Translations under genes and position numbers: made by a program | Shown: positions 9,729 to 21,864 of the stretch, in pieces | Layout of the letters: each line of letters opens with the position of its first letter | How positions within the stretch are numbered: position 1 is the first letter of the stretch | Source of the DNA: a virus | Reading direction: 5' to 3' (one strand) | IMG/VR virus record: IMGVR_UViG_3300037587_000361 | Coordinates: 1 to 21,906 of that record | Length of the DNA stretch: 21,906 bases | Notes under the pieces: generated by a model | Databases searched by the model: none | What the model was told of the DNA's origin: nothing | What the model saw: the letters and a program-made list of their open reading frames with translations, nothing else

Positions 9729-9974
9729 TCTGACGAACAGCAGAAGGTAGAAGAATTACAGGAAGCACTTGAGCAACGGGTGTCTGATTTCAAGCATTCG
9801 TTCGAGACTCTGCCCGGCAAGAGGGTTTATGAATATTTGTCAAAGTTTTGCTTTGAGAATCAGAGTACTTTCGATGCAAGTTCTCAGAGTACGTGCAATT
9901 TTAACGAAGGTTCAAGGTTCGTAATCCTTGAAATCAAAAAATGGTTGGAATTCGATTTAACTAAAAAGGAGTAA
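9726..9974 (+). CDS. Bbp19-like phage protein
   Basis: 82 residues. After an acidic helix (EELQEALEQRVSDFKHSF) come RVYEYLSKFCFENQSTFD and FNEGSRFVILEIKKWL. This matches the pattern of the Bbp19 family (named after Bordetella phage BPP-1): a cleavage-site-like start F-x-TF, R-V-EYL--FC, STF, then FNEGRR. The family sits among head genes of podoviruses and has no settled role. Position between portal and scaffold fits. Assignment is by remembered motif. Confidence 0.75.
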   Translation: MSDEQQKVEELQEALEQRVSDFKHSFETLPGKRVYEYLSKFCFENQSTFDASSQSTCNFNEGSRFVILEIKKWLEFDLTKKE

Positions 9975-9977
9975 ATT

Positions 9978-10553
9978 ATGAACGGATTAGCTGAGACCCC
10001 AAAAGGGACTACTTCAGCCCCAGGAATGTATGAGGAGATAGAGCAGGGCGATGAGGTTGCAAAAGGCCACGTGCAGGTTAAGGAGATTATTGCTTATGAC
10101 TTTATCGAAAGGAAAAAGGTAATAGAAAGAGATAAGATTGGCAACGAAATAGGTAGTAAGTGGGTGATTATTGAAAAGGGCCGCCCTCCGTATTTTTGCC
10201 AGACGAAGGAGCAGGAATTGATATTTCTGGAAAACAATCCTGGCATAAGAGAGGAAGATTCCAATAAAGTTGTAATTGCAGCTTCCGGTGTAAGGACGGA
10301 ATCCTATAGTATCCAACTACTCAAGTCAACGGCCATTAAGTACATAAATGACCCCAGAAACGTGAAGGAATTTACAAGACCTGAAAATGAGACACTTATA
10401 GATGCACTTGGAGGAACCGAACCAACTTGGCGGCAACAAGCCAAACAACTTGGTATTCCACTTAACAAGGAAACGGGCGGCTCACGGAAGAAAGAAGATG
10501 TTCTGACTGACATTGTAGCTGCGCTAACTCAAACTACAACGTCAATCAGTTAA
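9978..10553 (+). CDS. Virion-region protein with a C-terminal SAP-like segment
   Basis: 191 residues. GGAG (9968-9971) precedes ATG 9978. The main part is probably beta-rich (VQVKEIIAYDFIERKKVIE, KWVIIEKGRPPYFC). The C-terminal segment (WRQQAKQLGIPLNKETGG, then RKKEDVLTDIVAAL) resembles the helix-extended loop-helix of SAP/HeH-type DNA-binding motifs (AKELGI-----K-DVL--I). Position between the Bbp19-like gene and the scaffold suggests a head or DNA-associated role. Inference only. Confidence 0.6.
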   Translation: MNGLAETPKGTTSAPGMYEEIEQGDEVAKGHVQVKEIIAYDFIERKKVIERDKIGNEIGSKWVIIEKGRPPYFCQTKEQELIFLENNPGIREEDSNKVVIAASGVRTESYSIQLLKSTAIKYINDPRNVKEFTRPENETLIDALGGTEPTWRQQAKQLGIPLNKETGGSRKKEDVLTDIVAALTQTTTSIS

Positions 10554-14566: not shown

Positions 14567-14752
14567 ATGGCAACAGTAAAGGACAGGTGTGTATTTTTTG
14601 TTGAGGTTGACCAGTGTGAGTTTCTTACCAAAACAAACGGCGACAAAGTAAGATTTGGTAAGGGATTGCGCATAAGACAGAATGACGCCACTGCCTTGAC
14701 CTATTTAATACAGTCCGGCAAAAGGCTCAAAGTGATAGTTAGGGAGGCATAA
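14567..14752 (+). CDS. 61-residue protein coupled to the tail adaptor gene
   Basis: AAGGAG (14555-14560) precedes ATG 14567, and the stop overlaps the adaptor start (TAATG). Sequence: VKDRCVFFVEVDQCEF, VRFGKGLRIRQND, LKVIVREA; a small beta fold. Not recognised. Confidence 0.55.
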   Translation: MATVKDRCVFFVEVDQCEFLTKTNGDKVRFGKGLRIRQNDATALTYLIQSGKRLKVIVREA

Positions 14753-15519
14753 TGGCTTTAAGTGGAACAATAACCGAAACGGCGATTTGTAATATAAGTC
14801 TCGGCAAACTTGGTACTAAGAGAATACCAGATGGCGAGACTGTAGATTCCAGCACCACTTTAGAAGCCATTCAATGCCGACTTCATTACGAACAGACGAG
14901 AGACGCTCTAATACGCTCTCACTGGTGGCGATTTGCAAGTACAAGGATAAAACTTGTTTCGTCTTGGTTGACGGCTACGGTCTATACTACCGACCAATAT
15001 GTATCAAATGATTCTGTTTGGTATAAGTGCTTAAAGGCTCATACCTCTGGTGCTTTGGACGATGAACCTGGGGTTGGTGCTGTTGCTGGTACTTATTGGA
15101 CTACGCTCACAGAAGTCGATTACGTACCTGATATAGGGGAGTGGGACTTTATGTGGACTTTGCCAAGTAATTTTCTGAGTTTCAAGTCTATTTACGAAAA
15201 TAGGTTTACAGATGAGAATTATCGTTCTTATGCGCTCGAAGGGGAAAATCTTCTAACAAATCTTTCAGATGTAGGTATTCGGTACGTTAAGAAAGTTACA
15301 GACCCTACGGAATTTGACCCGTTATTTACTGAAGTTTTTGTTTGGATTTTGGCCAATAAAATGATTGGCTCTCTGGCCGGTGGCGATGCTCGAATACAAA
15401 AGAAGATTGATACTGCATTGGACAATTTAATGCCTGCCGTAATAGCAATGGACAAACAAGAAACTAACACAATAGGCGAACGCGATTTAGGGACGTGGAA
15501 TAATGCGAGGTATGCTTAA
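14752..15519 (+). CDS. Tail adaptor (tail tubular A, T7 gp11-like) with inserted CBM-like module
   Basis: 255 residues. The N-terminus (ETAICNISLGKLG, LHYEQTRDALIRSHWWRFA) and the C-terminal helices (FTEVFVWILANKMIGSLAGG, LDNLMPAVIAMDKQE) match the gp11/TTPA family. That family forms a dodecameric ring between portal and nozzle. The family core is interrupted at residues 72-117 by WLTATVYTTDQYVSND, VWYKCLKAHTSG and EPGVGAVAGTYW. This W..Y..D.V...VWY.C..AHTS......W pattern is typical of family 5/12 carbohydrate-binding modules. The insert may be exposed on the tail. It overlaps the neighbours at both ends (TAATG). Confidence 0.85.
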   Translation: MALSGTITETAICNISLGKLGTKRIPDGETVDSSTTLEAIQCRLHYEQTRDALIRSHWWRFASTRIKLVSSWLTATVYTTDQYVSNDSVWYKCLKAHTSGALDDEPGVGAVAGTYWTTLTEVDYVPDIGEWDFMWTLPSNFLSFKSIYENRFTDENYRSYALEGENLLTNLSDVGIRYVKKVTDPTEFDPLFTEVFVWILANKMIGSLAGGDARIQKKIDTALDNLMPAVIAMDKQETNTIGERDLGTWNNARYA

Positions 15520-15971
15520 TGGCGAATGAAATCGCCCACGACCATACGACTGGAAGCACTTTGTATTTTTGCGCGTTCCAACCGGACGGAAACGTATTTT
15601 TGACGGGTGGTGCATCTGACGAAGTTTGGGGAACTGACGGACGTGATGCTGACGATTATGACGAGACGATGACCGAAGACGGTGCTGGTGGTCATTATGT
15701 GGGCGATTTTGATACTTCTATCGCAGCGGGAGTATATCAGGTCGCCGTTTATTTGCAGGCCGGAGCTAATCCGGCAGATACCGATATAGCACTTGCGCGA
15801 GGCGAAATATATTGGGACGGTTCTGCCGAAATAAATATTTACACTTTGGATACTACTATCAATGATGACGTTATCGGTGCTGACGGCGATAGTCACGAAG
15901 ATTTATCAGACCAAATGGATGTTTTGTCATCGCAGGGAAGTAAAGTTTTGAATGTTTACGATGATAGGTGA
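15519..15971 (+). CDS. Beta-rich virion protein between adaptor and nozzle
   Basis: 150 residues. The order TLYFCAFQPDGNVFL, EVWGT, YDETMTEDGAGGHYVGDF, AAGVYQVAVYLQAGANPAD, GEIYWDG is one I recall from virion proteins of many phages: a beta-sandwich repeated in tail-associated or fibre proteins. A helical end (HEDLSDQMDVLSSQG) follows. Position between gp11-like and gp12-like genes supports a tail role. Function unknown. Confidence 0.7.
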   Translation: MANEIAHDHTTGSTLYFCAFQPDGNVFLTGGASDEVWGTDGRDADDYDETMTEDGAGGHYVGDFDTSIAAGVYQVAVYLQAGANPADTDIALARGEIYWDGSAEINIYTLDTTINDDVIGADGDSHEDLSDQMDVLSSQGSKVLNVYDDR

Positions 15972-15974
15972 AAT

Positions 15975-16151
15975 ATGATTAACGTGCCAATAATAAACTT
16001 AAACAGTGGCGAGTTTAGTCCGCTTATAGATGTGCGGTCTGACGTTGATAAGTATAAGTCGGGTTGCCGTAAATTGGATAATTTCTTTCCGAGAGTCTAT
16101 GGCGTAGTAGAGCGTAGGCCAGGCACGAAATTTATAAAGGAAGCAAAATGA
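15975..16151 (+). CDS. Tail nozzle protein, detached N-terminal segment
   Basis: 58 residues: INVPIINLNSGEFSPLIDV, KYKSGCRKLDNFFPRVYG, VERRPGTKFI. This is the hallmark N-terminus of the gp12-like tail nozzle/stabilisation family. In that family the RRPGTKF motif is followed within a few residues by an R-x-[LM]-P-F-x-FS segment. Here the frame stops at TGA 16149-16151, overlapping the next gene by ATGA. The expected continuation (TIRMMPFIFSSTIAY) appears at 19052, in the 1132-residue ORF. So either this is a split subunit that still assembles with the rest, or a remnant. No ribosome site is strong; it lies three bases behind the preceding stop. Confidence 0.85.
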   Translation: MINVPIINLNSGEFSPLIDVRSDVDKYKSGCRKLDNFFPRVYGVVERRPGTKFIKEAK

Positions 16152-16300
16152 AAGTGAAAATTGGCGACAAGTTAGTTGAAGTAAATGACGGCGTAATCAA
16201 GGCAACGGCTGAAGAAATTCGTCATCCTGACGGTCGGGTTGACGTTATTGTTAAAGTTCCCTGCTTGCAAATAAAAGCAGAAACTCAGAAAGGAGACTAA
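16148..16300 (+). CDS. 50-residue small protein in the insertion
   Basis: Starts inside the stop of the nozzle fragment (ATGA). The product is a compact beta-like sequence: KVKIGDKLVEVNDGVIKAT, EEIRHPDGRVDVIVKVPCL. I recall similar small proteins in phage tail regions but cannot assign a role. It is the first gene of the stretch that separates the two nozzle parts. Confidence 0.6.
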   Translation: MKVKIGDKLVEVNDGVIKATAEEIRHPDGRVDVIVKVPCLQIKAETQKGD

Positions 16301-16302
16301 TT

Positions 16303-16704
16303 ATGGCCTCAGGCATCTATTCACGCTTCAAGGCAAATCTTATGAACAAGGTAGTCGATTTAGAGGCGGACACCATCAAGGTAACTCTATACGACAACTC
16401 ACACAGTTTTACAGCGAGTGATACCGACTATACTACCGACAATGAGTTAGCTACTACCGGTGGCTACACTCAAGGTGGTGCTACGTTGGGGAGTAAGGCT
16501 GTTACGGAAGCGGCAACGACTAAATGGGATGCGGCGGATACGGCGTGGACGAGTGCGACTTTTACGGCATACCACGCTGTAATATATGACTCAACTGCGG
16601 GAAATGACCTTATTGCCTCTATTGATTTCGGTGGAGCAAAAGTGGTTTCATCCGGTACGTTCACAATCCAATGGGACGCGAATGGCTTAATTAGTTTATC
16701 TTGA
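16303..16704 (+). CDS. Probable virion protein (ASGIYSRFKANL family)
   Basis: 133 residues. AAAGGAG (16288-16294) precedes ATG 16303. The start MASGIYSRFKANLMNKVVD, LEADTIKVTLYDNSHSFT, and a C-terminal IASIDFGGAKVVSSGTF and FTIQWDANGLI are the pattern of a very common phage structural protein. In it the gene follows or lies among tail and fibre genes. Mostly beta. Part of the insertion in the nozzle gene. Its exact place in the virion is not known to me. Confidence 0.7.
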   Translation: MASGIYSRFKANLMNKVVDLEADTIKVTLYDNSHSFTASDTDYTTDNELATTGGYTQGGATLGSKAVTEAATTKWDAADTAWTSATFTAYHAVIYDSTAGNDLIASIDFGGAKVVSSGTFTIQWDANGLISLS

Positions 16705-16707
16705 CTC

Positions 16708-16716
16708 TGGTATAAT
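16708..16716 (+). promoter_or_regulatory. Extended -10 promoter ahead of the HNH gene
   Basis: TGGTATAAT (16708-16716) is a perfect extended -10 element (TGnTATAAT), 36 bases before the HNH start. The best -35 at 18 bases spacing is poor (TTAATT), which extended -10 promoters tolerate. The HNH gene could thus be transcribed independently of the tail operon. Confidence 0.55.
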
Positions 16717-16751
16717 ATCTTGTTACGATAGTAATAAAAAAGGAGAAAACT

Positions 16752-17252
16752 ATGGTAACGAAAAAAGGATATTATCAAGATAGGAATGATAAATGGTGGT
16801 ATAAACCGCCAAATATGGAAACCAGATTTAGTGCAAAGGTTTTTTCTTGTGTATCTTGTGGAAAAGAATCAATAAAGGTAAAAGGAAAAAAGAATAAAAC
16901 AGGCAGATATTACTGTTCCAAAAGTTGTGCTGCCAGAGATGGCGGTGGTTTGAAAGGGATGGTTGGCAAAAATCATTATGCTTGGAAGGGTGGCAGAAAT
17001 AAAGTTCGAGGTGGTTATGTTGAAATATATTGCCCAGACCATCCCGCGTCAAGAGGTGGAAAATATGTCCGAGAACATCGTCTTGTTATGGAAAAACATC
17101 TTGGCAGATATTTACTGTCTTCGGAATTGGTACATCACAAGAACGGGATTAAGGACGATAATAGATTGGAAAATCTTGTGTTGATGACTCGTGATTTACA
17201 TTTTGGAAAAATTATATGCCCGCATCGCGGAAAAGACTTTGTGATAAAATAG
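16752..17252 (+). CDS. HNH endonuclease with N-terminal zinc finger (homing type)
   Basis: 166 residues. An N-terminal zinc-finger-like part has Cys33-x2-Cys36 and Cys55-x3-Cys59 (CVSCGKES and YCSKSCAAR). Then come GKNHYAWKGG, YVREHRLVMEKHLGRYL and LVHHKNGIKDDNRLENL (H109, H128, H129, N131, N137). These are the HNH_3-like signature for metal-dependent DNA cutting. Such enzymes often act as free-standing homing endonucleases that spread themselves and nearby DNA. AGGAG (16741-16745) and an extended -10 element lie upstream. It sits in the middle of the segment that splits the nozzle gene, which makes it a candidate agent of the insertion. Confidence 0.88.
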   Translation: MVTKKGYYQDRNDKWWYKPPNMETRFSAKVFSCVSCGKESIKVKGKKNKTGRYYCSKSCAARDGGGLKGMVGKNHYAWKGGRNKVRGGYVEIYCPDHPASRGGKYVREHRLVMEKHLGRYLLSSELVHHKNGIKDDNRLENLVLMTRDLHFGKIICPHRGKDFVIK

Positions 17253-17263
17253 GAGATTAAATT

Positions 17264-17473
17264 ATGGTTACAAAACTTGCAATAACGACAAATGAAGAAG
17301 CAGCAAAAATAATTTTTGAGTTACTTATGCAGGATGTAAAACATAAGCGACTTGATATTGGCATAAGAGATTCATCTTTAGATACAAGAAGTCCACGTCT
17401 ATGTCCGGAAATACAGTTAACAACAGATGATAGCGTGATAACACTAACAGTGGCAACGGTACTTAGGAGATAA
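17264..17473 (+). CDS. 69-residue protein of unknown function
   Basis: GGAG (17251-17254) precedes ATG 17264. An N-terminal helix (NEEAAKIIFELLMQDVK) is followed by strand-like KRLDIGIRD and SVITLTVATVL. It lies between the HNH gene and a tail-like gene, all in the insertion. It has the same first four residues (MVTK) as the HNH protein, which may be chance. Confidence 0.55.
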   Translation: MVTKLAITTNEEAAKIIFELLMQDVKHKRLDIGIRDSSLDTRSPRLCPEIQLTTDDSVITLTVATVLRR

Positions 17474-17476
17474 CTT

Positions 17477-17983
17477 ATGGCTACAAGACCTACGGTGGGC
17501 GGCTCCGACGGTACTTGGGGTACTGAATTGAATGAGCATTTGGATGTCTCTTTGGATGCTGACGGCAAAGTAGATGATGGTGCTGCGCAAACAACTTCTG
17601 CTGCTCCAGACGCTGATGCTGAACTTGCCAATAAGAAATATGTGGATGATAGTGTCAAAGGTGATTCTCCGACTGGTAATGATTCCGAATCTAATGCAAT
17701 GTTACAAGCCCATGCTTACCTGACGCAGACCTCCGGGTTTGTATCGGCTTATCAAAATGCAGAGGCAACAGGTCATGCGAAGGGTTATATCGGTACTACG
17801 ACCGACCCCGAAGGGGCAGGCACGTTGATTGTTCAGTCAAAAATTACCGCCGGAGGAGCACCCTGTATATATATGTTCATCCCTGATGGTAAATATTTTG
17901 AAGTGACACATACCGGTACGTTAACCGCTATTACCTGGACCCCTCTCGTACCAGGTGGCGGCGCCCCAGTTGACCAGGATTAA
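17477..17983 (+). CDS. Tail-fibre-like virion protein
   Basis: 168 residues. The N-terminus is PTVGGSDGTWGTELNEHLD, followed by ADAELANKKYVDDSVKG. The ANKKYVDD motif recurs in phage tail-fibre and baseplate proteins. The remainder is beta-rich (GTLIVQSKITAGG, KYFEVTHTGTLTAI). Inferred: part of a fibre or side-tail component. It precedes the chimeric nozzle ORF by 54 bases and belongs to the same insertion. Confidence 0.6.
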   Translation: MATRPTVGGSDGTWGTELNEHLDVSLDADGKVDDGAAQTTSAAPDADAELANKKYVDDSVKGDSPTGNDSESNAMLQAHAYLTQTSGFVSAYQNAEATGHAKGYIGTTTDPEGAGTLIVQSKITAGGAPCIYMFIPDGKYFEVTHTGTLTAITWTPLVPGGGAPVDQD

Positions 17984-18037
17984 GGAGCTTAAATTATTGC
18001 TTCGAGTATCACGATAACAGAAACAAAGGTATGATAA

Positions 18038-21000
18038 GTGGCGCATACAGCAGATACAAATTTAAGGTTTACCGGAAGTTCTAATCCGCTTACCAGTGCC
18101 TATACCTGCGGGGCAAGTGCTAAACTTCTTGTCTTGGGAATAGTAACCGGTGGTTCGGTTCAGCGTTCAGGAGATGCGCCTACTTACAACGGGGTTGAAT
18201 TAACCCAAGCTGACGAGACAAGACAGTACATTACCAATCCGGAAACGAGTTGTGAGTTATGGTATCTTACGGAGCCTGGAACCAGTTCTGCTTTTCAAAT
18301 TAGTATTCCTAACCCTACTTCTTTAACCTTGCACGTTCAAGCTTCAAGTTACAATGTAGCTTCCGGTTTTACGAGTGCTTTGGATGTCGATGGCGGTAAT
18401 ACAGGACTCTCCGCAAGTCCTTCGGTATCAGTTACACCTACTGTAAATGGGGCAGTAATAGTAGGGGTTTTGGGTGGTGGCCAAGATTACGCTCCCGTAA
18501 ATCAGTCAGGAACAGAATTAAATGCAACTGATAATGGTCTTTATTCTGATAGCAACCAATATACTTTACAGGCAATTGCCGGGGCCATAGCAACAGACTG
18601 GACAACTGGTGTTTACGGAAGTGGAGTTTATGGTGTAGGTCTTTATGGTGGCGCTGATGATTGGTGTATGTCTGTTGCTGCTTTCAAGCAGACAAATGTT
18701 ACAATAACAGTCGAGCCGGATGCATTAGCATTGTCTTTATCTTTGCTAAATCCTTCTATCACGGCAGGGACGGGCGTTTCAATATTACCTTCCACATTGG
18801 CTTTGACGGCAACATTGAATGCACCAACTATTGTAATAAATGTAACGCACGAAGTAACCGTACAGGCTCTTACCCTTTCCCTAAAAGCCCCCTCTGTTGT
18901 TGTTAGTGTTACTGTCGAACCATCTGCGTTGTCGTTATCTTTATCTCTTGGAAATGTTTCTGTTTTAGCTGAACGGAATATAACCGTTGTAATTTCTTTA
19001 CTTACATTAAGTTTAACATTAGAACAGCCAAATTCGTTGGCTCCCCTTCCCACAATACGAATGATGCCGTTTATATTTTCTTCTACTATAGCATACCCGG
19101 TCGAGTTCGGTAACGAATATGCAAGGTTTTATTTCAGTGGAGAACCATTATTGGGAGCCGGAGAAATCCATGTTGATATTTCAACTCCTTATCAATCTTC
19201 TGATTTGTATCAACTTCAGACTAAACAGAGTGCTGACGTTATGTGGATTGTTCATCCTTCTTATCCACAGGCGAAATTAAAAAGGACAACGCCTACGACT
19301 TTCGTACTTGAAGATATTGTATTCAATAAAGGCCCGTTCATTGAAAGAAATGATATAGCGGAAAATGACGGGGTTACAATGAATGTCAATGTAACTAACG
19401 AAGGAGGCGCTGGAATCTTAACCAGTTCGTCAGGGATATTTCAAACCGGCCATATCGGAACCTTATTCAAACTTACACATCCCCGCGTGAACCGAGAGAC
19501 AAACGGCAGTAAGACAGGTACTGAGACCGGAATCATAGGCGAGGCTATTGATGTTTTCGGAGATTATATTTTTTCAATCACTTCTTCTTCGTGGTCGGGG
19601 ACGGTAAGTTTGCAAAGGAGTACGGACGACTGGGTAAGTAATACAAATGTAATAACTTTTACCAGTGGCAAGCAAACCTACAAGAATACGGAAGAAACCG
19701 CTAATGTTCAGTATCGTATAAATGTTACGGCTCATTCTTCCGGCACAATATCTTCGAGTCTTGTTGTAAATACCAGTGCGATTAGCGGTTCTGCGACCAG
19801 TATAGGGGTGATTAAGATACCACTTGACGTAAAAGGTGATTTTAATTTCAATACTCACGGCAATTGGGATGCTACCGTTGTGTTGGAGAGGAATGTGGAC
19901 AGCGCGGGATGGGAGCCGTACAGGACATACATTTCGGTAATAGAGAATGGCGTAGGAGACAGGAATGTTCAATTTGCAGGAGTCGAGGAGGATGATAATG
20001 TTCAATACCGAATAAACGTAACTACTTATTCGAGTGGAACTCTTAATGCGGATTTGCAAGCTACGTCAAGTACGCAATCTGGAATAGTAAGAATAAACGG
20101 CATTTTGTCCGATGTGGAATCTGAAATTACGGTCGTTTCCAAGGTTAGCCAGACAACCGATACAAAGCGCTGGGCTGAAGGTGCGTGGTCTGGGGTGAGA
20201 GGGTATCCTTCTGCAATTACACTCTTCGAGGAACGTGCCGTATATGGGTTTACCAATTCCGACCAGCAAGATATATGGTTAAGTGAAACGGGAAGATTTG
20301 AAGATTTTGAAGCGGGCATAAAGGACGCTGATTCGTTTGCCTTAACAATTCCAACCGCTAATCGTGGAAAATGGTTAGGTTCGCTCGAAACTCTTGTTGC
20401 CGGTACGTCAGGTGGTGAATGGCGCATAAAATCGCCCTTGGATGAATCTTTAACTCCCAAGAATTGGGACATAAAAAAGCAAACATCTTACGGCGGCGCG
20501 GACGTACAGGTGGTGGAGGTTGGGTCTGTAATATTGTTTATTGATTTCGTTGGCAGGAAGATTAGGGAAGTTACGTTTGTGGATGCCGACCAGAAGTACG
20601 TTGCTCACGATTTAACGTCTCTTGCCGAGCATATTACGACCTCTGGAATAGTGTGTTTCGCTCACCAGAGGAATCCTGACTCAATTTTGTGGTGTGTACT
20701 CGATAATGGCAATTTGATTACGTTAAGTTATGAACGGGAGCATAATGTTGTGGCTTGGGCGAGACATCCGATGGACGGTTTAGTGCAATCTGTCGCAGTC
20801 ATTCCCGCTTCCGGCGAAGATGAGGTTTGGATTACGATTGTAAGGGCCATTGACGGCGAGAACAAAGTTTACATAGAGCAATTCCAGTCAAGGTATCTCG
20901 ATATTAGGAAAGAAAACTCCTACTTTGTCGATAGCGGCATTATTTACAATAGCATATTAACAGATACCATAACCGACTTAGGCCATCTCGAAGGAAAGGT

Positions 21001-21436
21001 TGTTGCAATTTTGGCGGATGGAGAAGTGTTGGCTCAGCAAAGAGTTGTTGGTGGACAGATTTCACTTTCTACTCAAGCAAGGAATGTAAGGGTAGGACTC
21101 CCCTTTGTTTCACAAGTAACTCCGATGAGAATGGACTTGAATCTGCCATCCGGAACTACACATGGCAGTATCAAGAAAACATCGGAGATTGTTGTTAGTT
21201 TTCACGATACTTTGAACGCACAATACGGTCATTCTGAAAAGGAATTATTTGATTTTGACTGGACTAACGTAAGGTGGGTTAATACCAGCGAGATTGAAGG
21301 GTTGTTTTCGGGAGATATAACAACTGCTTTTGACGGTGGCTTTAATACTGATGATACAATGATTATTTCGCAATCAGACCCGCTTCCTTGCACTGTAAGA
21401 GCTATAATACCGAGAATAGAAAAGACGGGACGCTAA
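18038..21436 (+). CDS. Chimeric tail protein: beta-rich/repeat N-terminus fused to the tail nozzle body
   Basis: 1132 residues from GTG 18038, directly after a stop and eight bases behind AAAGG. Residues 1-218: beta-rich domain with Gly-Tyr repeats (TTGVYGSGVYGVGLYGG). Residues 219-333: about five degenerate repeats of the type TVEPSALSLSLSL, ending at a junction. Residues 339-1132: the gp12-like nozzle body. It has TIRMMPFIFSSTIAYPVEF, two similar beta units (498-681), then propeller motifs GYPSAITLFEERAVYG, TLVAGTSGGEWRI, QTSYGGADVQVVEVG, DSILWCVLDNGNLITLSYE and AVIPASGEDEVWITI. The nozzle body lacks its usual first 60 residues, which sit at 15975. Role: closes the tail channel and contacts fibres. 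The overlapping gp13-like gene follows (TAATG). Confidence 0.85.
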   Translation: MAHTADTNLRFTGSSNPLTSAYTCGASAKLLVLGIVTGGSVQRSGDAPTYNGVELTQADETRQYITNPETSCELWYLTEPGTSSAFQISIPNPTSLTLHVQASSYNVASGFTSALDVDGGNTGLSASPSVSVTPTVNGAVIVGVLGGGQDYAPVNQSGTELNATDNGLYSDSNQYTLQAIAGAIATDWTTGVYGSGVYGVGLYGGADDWCMSVAAFKQTNVTITVEPDALALSLSLLNPSITAGTGVSILPSTLALTATLNAPTIVINVTHEVTVQALTLSLKAPSVVVSVTVEPSALSLSLSLGNVSVLAERNITVVISLLTLSLTLEQPNSLAPLPTIRMMPFIFSSTIAYPVEFGNEYARFYFSGEPLLGAGEIHVDISTPYQSSDLYQLQTKQSADVMWIVHPSYPQAKLKRTTPTTFVLEDIVFNKGPFIERNDIAENDGVTMNVNVTNEGGAGILTSSSGIFQTGHIGTLFKLTHPRVNRETNGSKTGTETGIIGEAIDVFGDYIFSITSSSWSGTVSLQRSTDDWVSNTNVITFTSGKQTYKNTEETANVQYRINVTAHSSGTISSSLVVNTSAISGSATSIGVIKIPLDVKGDFNFNTHGNWDATVVLERNVDSAGWEPYRTYISVIENGVGDRNVQFAGVEEDDNVQYRINVTTYSSGTLNADLQATSSTQSGIVRINGILSDVESEITVVSKVSQTTDTKRWAEGAWSGVRGYPSAITLFEERAVYGFTNSDQQDIWLSETGRFEDFEAGIKDADSFALTIPTANRGKWLGSLETLVAGTSGGEWRIKSPLDESLTPKNWDIKKQTSYGGADVQVVEVGSVILFIDFVGRKIREVTFVDADQKYVAHDLTSLAEHITTSGIVCFAHQRNPDSILWCVLDNGNLITLSYEREHNVVAWARHPMDGLVQSVAVIPASGEDEVWITIVRAIDGENKVYIEQFQSRYLDIRKENSYFVDSGIIYNSILTDTITDLGHLEGKVVAILADGEVLAQQRVVGGQISLSTQARNVRVGLPFVSQVTPMRMDLNLPSGTTHGSIKKTSEIVVSFHDTLNAQYGHSEKELFDFDWTNVRWVNTSEIEGLFSGDITTAFDGGFNTDDTMIISQSDPLPCTVRAIIPRIEKTGR
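18704..19036 (+). repeat. Degenerate repeats in the chimeric tail protein
   Basis: About five units, for example VEPDALALSLSLLNPSI, LPSTLALTATLNAPTI, VQALTLSLKAPSVVV, VEPSALSLSLSLGNVSV, VISLLTLSLTLEQPNS. Such Leu/Ser repeats end some phage tail-associated proteins. Here the last one runs straight into the nozzle body. Confidence 0.65.
19529..20080 (+). repeat. Tandem duplicated beta unit in the nozzle body
   Basis: Residues 498-589 and 590-681 align: IDVFGDYIFSITSSSWSGTV with LDVKGDFNFNTHGNWDATV, and NVQYRINVTAHSSGT with NVQYRINVTTYSSGT. The copies are diverged at DNA level outside the NVQYRINVT core. Confidence 0.75.
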
Positions 21437-21864
21437 TGGAAATCCGCAAGGCTACGCAAGAAGATATGGCCTTTGTCCGTCAGAATCCTTTCGAGGGTGC
21501 GGTCAAGAACTATCCTTATATGGAAGTGCCTGATGAGAATACTTATACGGCCATTTATGAAAGTGCCATAGTGGCCGTAGGTGGATTGCAAGTGAAGTGG
21601 GAAGGCGTGGGATTGCTATGGCTGATGCTGACCGCCGATTGTAAAAAATACGGCGTATTTGGCTTGATTGCGTTAGAGGCCATTAAAGAAAAGATGGAAT
21701 TCTTAATAGAAGAGAACAATCTCTGGCGGGCAGAGGCAGTAATTAGAACTGGCTTTCCGCAGGCGATTAAAATGATAGAGTTCTTTGGTTTTGAACGGGA
21801 AGGTCTAATGAGACAATATATGCCAGACAAAAGCGATGGATATTTATATTCAAGGATATTCTAA
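21436..21864 (+). CDS. GNAT-like protein, T7 gp13 position
   Basis: I chose ATG 21436, which overlaps the nozzle stop (TAATG); an ATG at 21388 would lie inside the nozzle gene. 142 residues: MEIRKATQEDMAFVRQNPF, AIVAVGGLQVKWEGVGLLW, FGLIALEAIKEKMEFLIEE, RAEAVIRTGFPQAIKMIEFF, GFEREGLMRQYMPD. This is the alpha/beta pattern of GNAT acetyltransferases, and resembles the gp13 family found just after gp12 in T7-like phages. Gp13 helps virion assembly without a known acetylation target. Whether it binds acetyl-CoA is not visible (no clear R/Q-x-x-G-x-G/A). Confidence 0.8.
   Translation: MEIRKATQEDMAFVRQNPFEGAVKNYPYMEVPDENTYTAIYESAIVAVGGLQVKWEGVGLLWLMLTADCKKYGVFGLIALEAIKEKMEFLIEENNLWRAEAVIRTGFPQAIKMIEFFGFEREGLMRQYMPDKSDGYLYSRIF

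Follow-up and report, generated by a model that had tools for sequence, protein, structure and literature searches.

The window analysed here (the whole 21,906 bases of IMG/VR virus record IMGVR_UViG_3300037587_000361) encodes its tail nozzle, the protein that opens and closes the DNA channel of short-tailed phages, in two separate pieces: a 58-residue N-terminal piece (the N-piece) and a C-terminal remainder (the C-piece) that occupies most of a second open reading frame (ORF), with several other genes between them. The split is conserved in relatives, both of its products are under purifying selection, and nozzle genes of this family turn out to be broken recurrently at a few fixed loops. 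The probable explanation, in our judgment, is that of an ancestral split nozzle whose pieces assemble non-covalently and whose break serves as a permissive attachment point, at which a cassette of genes has grown stepwise.

Two pieces of one nozzle

The window carries a tailed-phage late block: terminase (phrog_675), a head-tail adaptor or portal-like protein (phrog_332), the major head protein (phrog_3437) and a tail protein (phrog_394), followed by the nozzle region. Its place behind the phrog_394 tail protein in a head-tail gene block is that of a podovirus nozzle; the phrog_394 gene precedes intact as well as split nozzles. The nozzle features are these:

15975-16151, + strand: nozzle N-piece, 58 residues, stop codon at 16149-16151; phrog_376 positions 4-60, E 1.9e-16
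18038-19051, + strand: 338-residue extension at the N-terminal end of the C-piece, opening with a conserved stretch and continuing in degenerate repeats such as VEPDALALSLSL; marked out by its conservation with the cassette
19052-21436, + strand: C-piece, carrying the rest of the nozzle (ORF 18038-21436, residues 339-1132); phrog_376 positions 66-710, E 6.8e-156

The N-piece is the family's N-terminal segment, with its RSD, GCR and ERRPG motifs, and ends where that segment ends. The ORF at 18038-21436 specifies 1132 residues from a GTG start; its residues 340-1130 align to phrog_376 66-710, and the C-piece also matches the Carin-1 tail nozzle (PDB 8ck1_A, E 6.4e-77). The two pieces are thus consecutive parts of a profile of length 712, which confirms the proposal of a preliminary description of this DNA that a nozzle is divided into a 58-residue piece and residues 339-1132. 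In a second profile, made from six intact nozzles (839 columns) and run against the ORFs of all fetched loci, the facing ends fall at columns 57 and 65, so that the pieces lack no more than a turn of some 7 residues between them. N-piece and C-piece occupy different reading frames; read-through is therefore unable to join them, and the single polypeptide that is usual (not defining) in the phrog_376 family is here replaced by two ORFs. Intact nozzles lack the 338-residue extension, which found no match in a Pfam search; it is conserved with the cassette at 52-79% identity, and at 45-51% in two more distant loci (L052 and L053).

Fourteen other IMG/VR contigs (L002-L007, L016, L018, L057, L061, L062, L087, L088 and L092, some of them incomplete) carry the same cassette, in the order phrog_394 gene, gene of about 150 residues, N-piece, 50-residue gene, phrog_644 gene, gene of about 168 residues, extension plus core, phrog_4177 gene. 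The contigs with the same split stem from other metagenomes. Among the first set of these cassette relatives, core identities range from 64% to 77%, and the window's N-piece is 74-76% identical to the N-pieces of several of them; on a tree of C-terminal domains the window and seven other rows form one clade of 8 (Shimodaira-Hasegawa-like approximate likelihood ratio test, SH-aLRT, 100). Both pieces are under purifying selection: between L003 and L005 the N-piece has a nonsynonymous divergence (dN) of 0.074 and a synonymous divergence (dS) of 0.60, dN/dS about 0.12, and the core has dN/dS about 0.11. An uninterrupted nozzle, for which a search of related genomes had been suggested, was found as an intact single ORF at the corresponding place in L008-L014 and L019. 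Two relatives of about 45 kb (G001 and G005) contain exactly one N-piece and one C-piece each, and no second nozzle was found in them. The split is real, not an artefact, and a working two-piece nozzle, one of the possibilities raised at the outset, is the best reading of it.

(A technical note: an initial scan of genomes, with the core of the window as query, returned no matches; alignment A1 diverged too much, across its 24 varied N-pieces, to serve as a search query; and the genome scan that used alignment A2 yielded three relatives only. Among the matches listed from 50,697 phage records, which were checked for cultured phages with a split nozzle, none showed two annotated nozzle genes.)

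Recurrent breaks at a few loops

Counting was based on 108 distinct nozzles that retain most of the C-terminal domain, and about one third of these sampled relatives are split. Site A, the window's type (columns 57-65), is broken in 23 (L148 was scored as such after inspection of its pieces), site B (columns about 442-461) in 15, and site C (columns about 619 or 663-707) in 7; six nozzles are in three pieces, with A and B both broken. The minimum numbers of state changes on the C-terminal-domain tree, which lump gains, losses and recombination together, are 9 for A, 5 for B and 3 for C, and on well-supported branches alone 5, 3 and 2; a single clade for the A splits is rejected (p 9.6e-6). Pieces overlap by 1-8 bases in some family members, and certain breaks consist of overlapping ORFs with nothing between them (4 bases in L117, 1 base in L196). 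At site B no split has a gap of more than 76 bases, too little for an endonuclease gene, and many A splits are equally tight. Shine-Dalgarno-like motifs precede 23 of the 54 downstream pieces, against a background of 15%, which is supportive rather than decisive. The three-piece nozzle of L196 (8804-12360) lies on a contig from a Phycisphaerae metagenome-assembled genome, which hints at the hosts of the split group. In L102 (11058-13534) and L105 (11609-13752) the C-terminus of the nozzle appears to have been partly duplicated after a site C split.

The breaks were placed on an AlphaFold2 model, built from 60 sequences, of the intact relative L160 (predicted local distance difference test score, pLDDT, 92.9; predicted template-modelling score, pTM, 0.88). 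Site A falls in loop 56-63, flanked by strands 50-55 and 64-69, site B in loop 362-369 and site C1 in loop 536-539: in this model all three are inter-strand loops. Foldseek relates the model to the nozzles of Carin-1 (template-modelling score, TM, 0.83) and LME-1 (0.70) and to T7 gp12 (0.57-0.59).

The same places accept additional sequence. In-frame insertions within single-ORF stretches occur at A (63 residues, L166), C1 (236-578 residues) and C2 (up to 317 residues). New ends bear extra sequence on most C-pieces at A and on the second pieces of 8 of the 15 B splits (191-582 residues) and 6 of the 7 C splits (390-500 residues). A Laminin_G_3 (LamG) domain was recognized in one N-piece of L052, which is 356 residues long, and GLUG motifs in extensions of L076, L067 and L152; tail-spike ORFs lie between the pieces of L163 (7392-8966, site A) and L063 (10599-11780, site C). 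Since breaks collect adhesin-like domains and sometimes tail-spike genes, they offer a possible route to diversity of host recognition, which phages may thus generate through the nozzle itself. Four single-ORF nozzles (L180, L188, L182 and L194) carry in-frame insertions of about 300-490 residues in a loop at column ~97, where no split has been seen.

All 23 A-split loci retain an N-piece, a count to be read with the fact that an A split was, by construction, scored only where an N-piece was found; the sole core-bearing locus without one is L157, whose core starts at base 1 of the locus. Seven loci have two copies (L052 7333-8588, L109 8814-10173, L110 8295-10182, L153 6837-8561, L161 7384-8999, L163 6904-7316 and L076 9001-12596): six pair a short with a long copy, the latter bearing a long C-terminal extension, and L163 has two short copies and a spike gene. 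The RxD, CR and RPG motifs are kept in most copies and partly lost in the long copies of L148 and L161. The two copies of L163 share an identical run of residues in their second half, suggestive of recent duplication or conversion.

The genes between the pieces

Four other genes and a gene for an HNH endonuclease had been said to lie between the pieces, and they do, as ORFs of 50, 133, 166 (HNH), 69 and 168 residues. With the flanking genes they are:

14752-15519, + strand: upstream tail protein, conserved context; phrog_394, E 1.1e-29
16148-16300, + strand: 50-residue cassette gene, restricted to loci with a cassette of the window's type, where its counterparts are 54-84% identical
16303-16704, + strand: 133-residue cassette gene; phrog_644, E 2.9e-24
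16752-17252, + strand: free-standing HNH endonuclease, 166 residues; phrog_20891, E 1.7e-29; HNH_3 PF13392, E 4.7e-11
17264-17473, + strand: 69-residue cassette gene, with a 49% identical ORF at the corresponding place in L006 only
17477-17983, + strand: 168-residue short-fibre-like gene, first ~60 residues conserved with a TWGTxLN motif, remainder variable
21433-21864, + strand: conserved neighbour on the 3' side of the C-piece; phrog_4177, E 1e-16

The ATG of the 50-residue gene overlaps the stop codon of the N-piece (ATGA) and is preceded by AAGGA within the last N-piece codons; the two are probably coupled in translation. The phrog_644 gene, which found no match among the 50,697 phage records, also stands immediately 5' of the extension-core ORF in L052 and L053. 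On the other side, the phrog_4177 gene adjoins the 3' side of the C-piece in those cassette relatives whose sequence reaches that far.

Most relatives match the 168-residue gene over its first ~60 residues only; full-length likeness is confined to its counterpart in L057. The tail-spike ORFs of L163 and L173, which separate nozzle pieces there, share the TWGTxLN motif, and all TWGTxLN ORFs in the sampled loci are either between pieces or in cassette fragments. The HNH gene, in the window as in L057, adjoins the only two genes of the 168-residue type that are alike from end to end, as if the two travelled together. The pattern fits an HNH gene accompanying an exchangeable fibre-like gene better than one responsible for breaking the nozzle. 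To judge by its title, 'Nuclease genes occupy boundaries of genetic exchange between bacteriophages' (PMC10448857), one paper suggests that this may be general.

Is the HNH gene, then, what broke the nozzle? The earlier conjecture was of a multi-gene cassette carried into the nozzle gene, possibly by a homing HNH endonuclease; in phage Aeh1, mobE split nrdA in that way. The HNH gene between the pieces is genuine and there is precedent for enzymes that are split yet working (PMC2988022), but such an origin is very improbable and already largely refuted. The gene sits at neither break, about 600 bases from the first, between the phrog_644 and 69-residue cassette genes, and nearly all relatives that share the break lack it: among cassette relatives only L057 has one (57% identical, 9832-10353), in the same intergenic interval. 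The short gaps at B, and many of those at A, cannot hold an endonuclease. The cassette is not one unit, because a subset of it occurs in L052 and L053, which have the order N-piece, phrog_644 gene, extension-core, with two N-pieces and without the 50- and 168-residue genes. Of the cassette marked by an HNH gene, as first described, the genes themselves stand, while the single HNH-marked unit does not; the cassette is a mosaic that did not arrive by homing as a single unit.

How a split nozzle might work

The preferred explanation can be set out as follows. The nozzle gene would have been split in an ancestor of the lineage, in the turn that links two β strands about 58 residues into the chain; its products would be translated separately and would most likely join without covalent bonds to form a single nozzle protomer. 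To this the N-piece would contribute strands of the platform domain, which T7 gp12 builds from both ends of its chain. In T7 gp12 the 45-residue N-terminus contributes three strands to the C-terminal platform barrel (PMC6702177), so that a split after ~58 residues plausibly leaves a small platform-completing unit. The break point would then have become a permissive attachment site, the new ends bearing extra domains and the gap being able to host genes of the receptor-binding type; the cassette would have grown stepwise, with the HNH gene as a late and incidental passenger. One may take this further, if only tentatively, and see in the break points a plug-in system: an N-piece that docks by strand complementation into each protomer could carry an adhesin, short and long N-pieces together could generate mosaic nozzles that display appendages of two sorts, and the exchange of tail-fibre genes could take place inside the split gene. 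The nozzle protein of podophage OWB does bind the host receptor (PMC7241545).

Several considerations weigh against this explanation. The evidence on all split nozzles here consists of sequences and predicted models, and the fold of a nozzle is seen in the model of the intact relative: the window's own core (12 sequences) was modelled poorly, at pLDDT 48.7, and that model was not used, so that strand complementation rests on the intact relative and T7. The numbers of changes come from a quick tree of C-terminal domains, and recombination between phages could inflate them.

Other accounts fare worse. It is unlikely that the C-piece works alone, its 338-residue extension taking over while the N-piece serves in another role: the N-piece is short and separately encoded, to be sure, and the long-extended N-pieces resemble anchors for other domains, but a motif-bearing N-piece is present at every A-split locus and is under purifying selection, and in L117 and L196 the next ORF begins at the core, without any replacement segment. 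Restoration of a single chain by RNA splicing (an intron) or protein splicing (a split intein), to which the almost exact abutment of the pieces and the presence of an HNH gene, typical cargo of phage introns, might lend some colour, is scarcely credible: Rfam finds no family at E<=1 in 15500-19500, Pfam no intein domain in the window's pieces or in ten pieces of relatives, the intervening region is made up of complete, conserved ORFs, and the overlapping pieces of other members leave nothing to excise. Least credible of all is a faulty assembly, or else a second, intact nozzle in another part of the genome. The window is a record of 21.9 kb whose completeness is not stated in the record, but a mis-joined contig does not account for the same arrangement in many independently assembled contigs, nor a second copy for 45-kb relatives that hold the two pieces and no other nozzle.

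The open-access literature searched, a limited set without most subscription papers, yielded no mention of a split nozzle. Repeated breaks at the same loops, into as many as three pieces, reveal where the structure of the nozzle tolerates cuts, and the split family is a ready-made set for studying the assembly of a large β-rich machine from fragments.

The obvious comparison is with the podovirus nozzle itself (T7 gp12, the Carin-1 protein 8ck1, phrog_376), with which both pieces share sequence family and place after phrog_394, and an intact close relative the fold. Unlike the solved nozzles found, single chains described as one per subunit, the window's nozzle has two pieces, an extension and intervening genes. 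The T4-like phages have genes in pieces (Aeh1 nrdA with mobE, phage 25 gene 43, the T4 topoisomerase gene with mobA; PMC2988022), and several of the known split but functional phage enzymes are tied to endonuclease insertion (PMC2988022). As there, a normally single coding region yields separate polypeptides that would have to reassemble; those proteins, however, are enzymes, each split once in connection with an endonuclease or some other insert, whereas the nozzle belongs to the tail structure and its gene has been broken repeatedly at the same few loops, mostly with no endonuclease involved. The Aeh1 mobE type differs also in that the window's endonuclease is not at the break, and most relatives that share this break do without it. 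Finally, the 168-residue gene and the spikes of L163 and L173, with their common TWGTxLN start, resemble receptor-binding proteins in combining a conserved N-terminal anchor with a variable tip; what sets them apart is that they lie inside a split nozzle gene, and that in some relatives the N-piece itself carries the extra domain.

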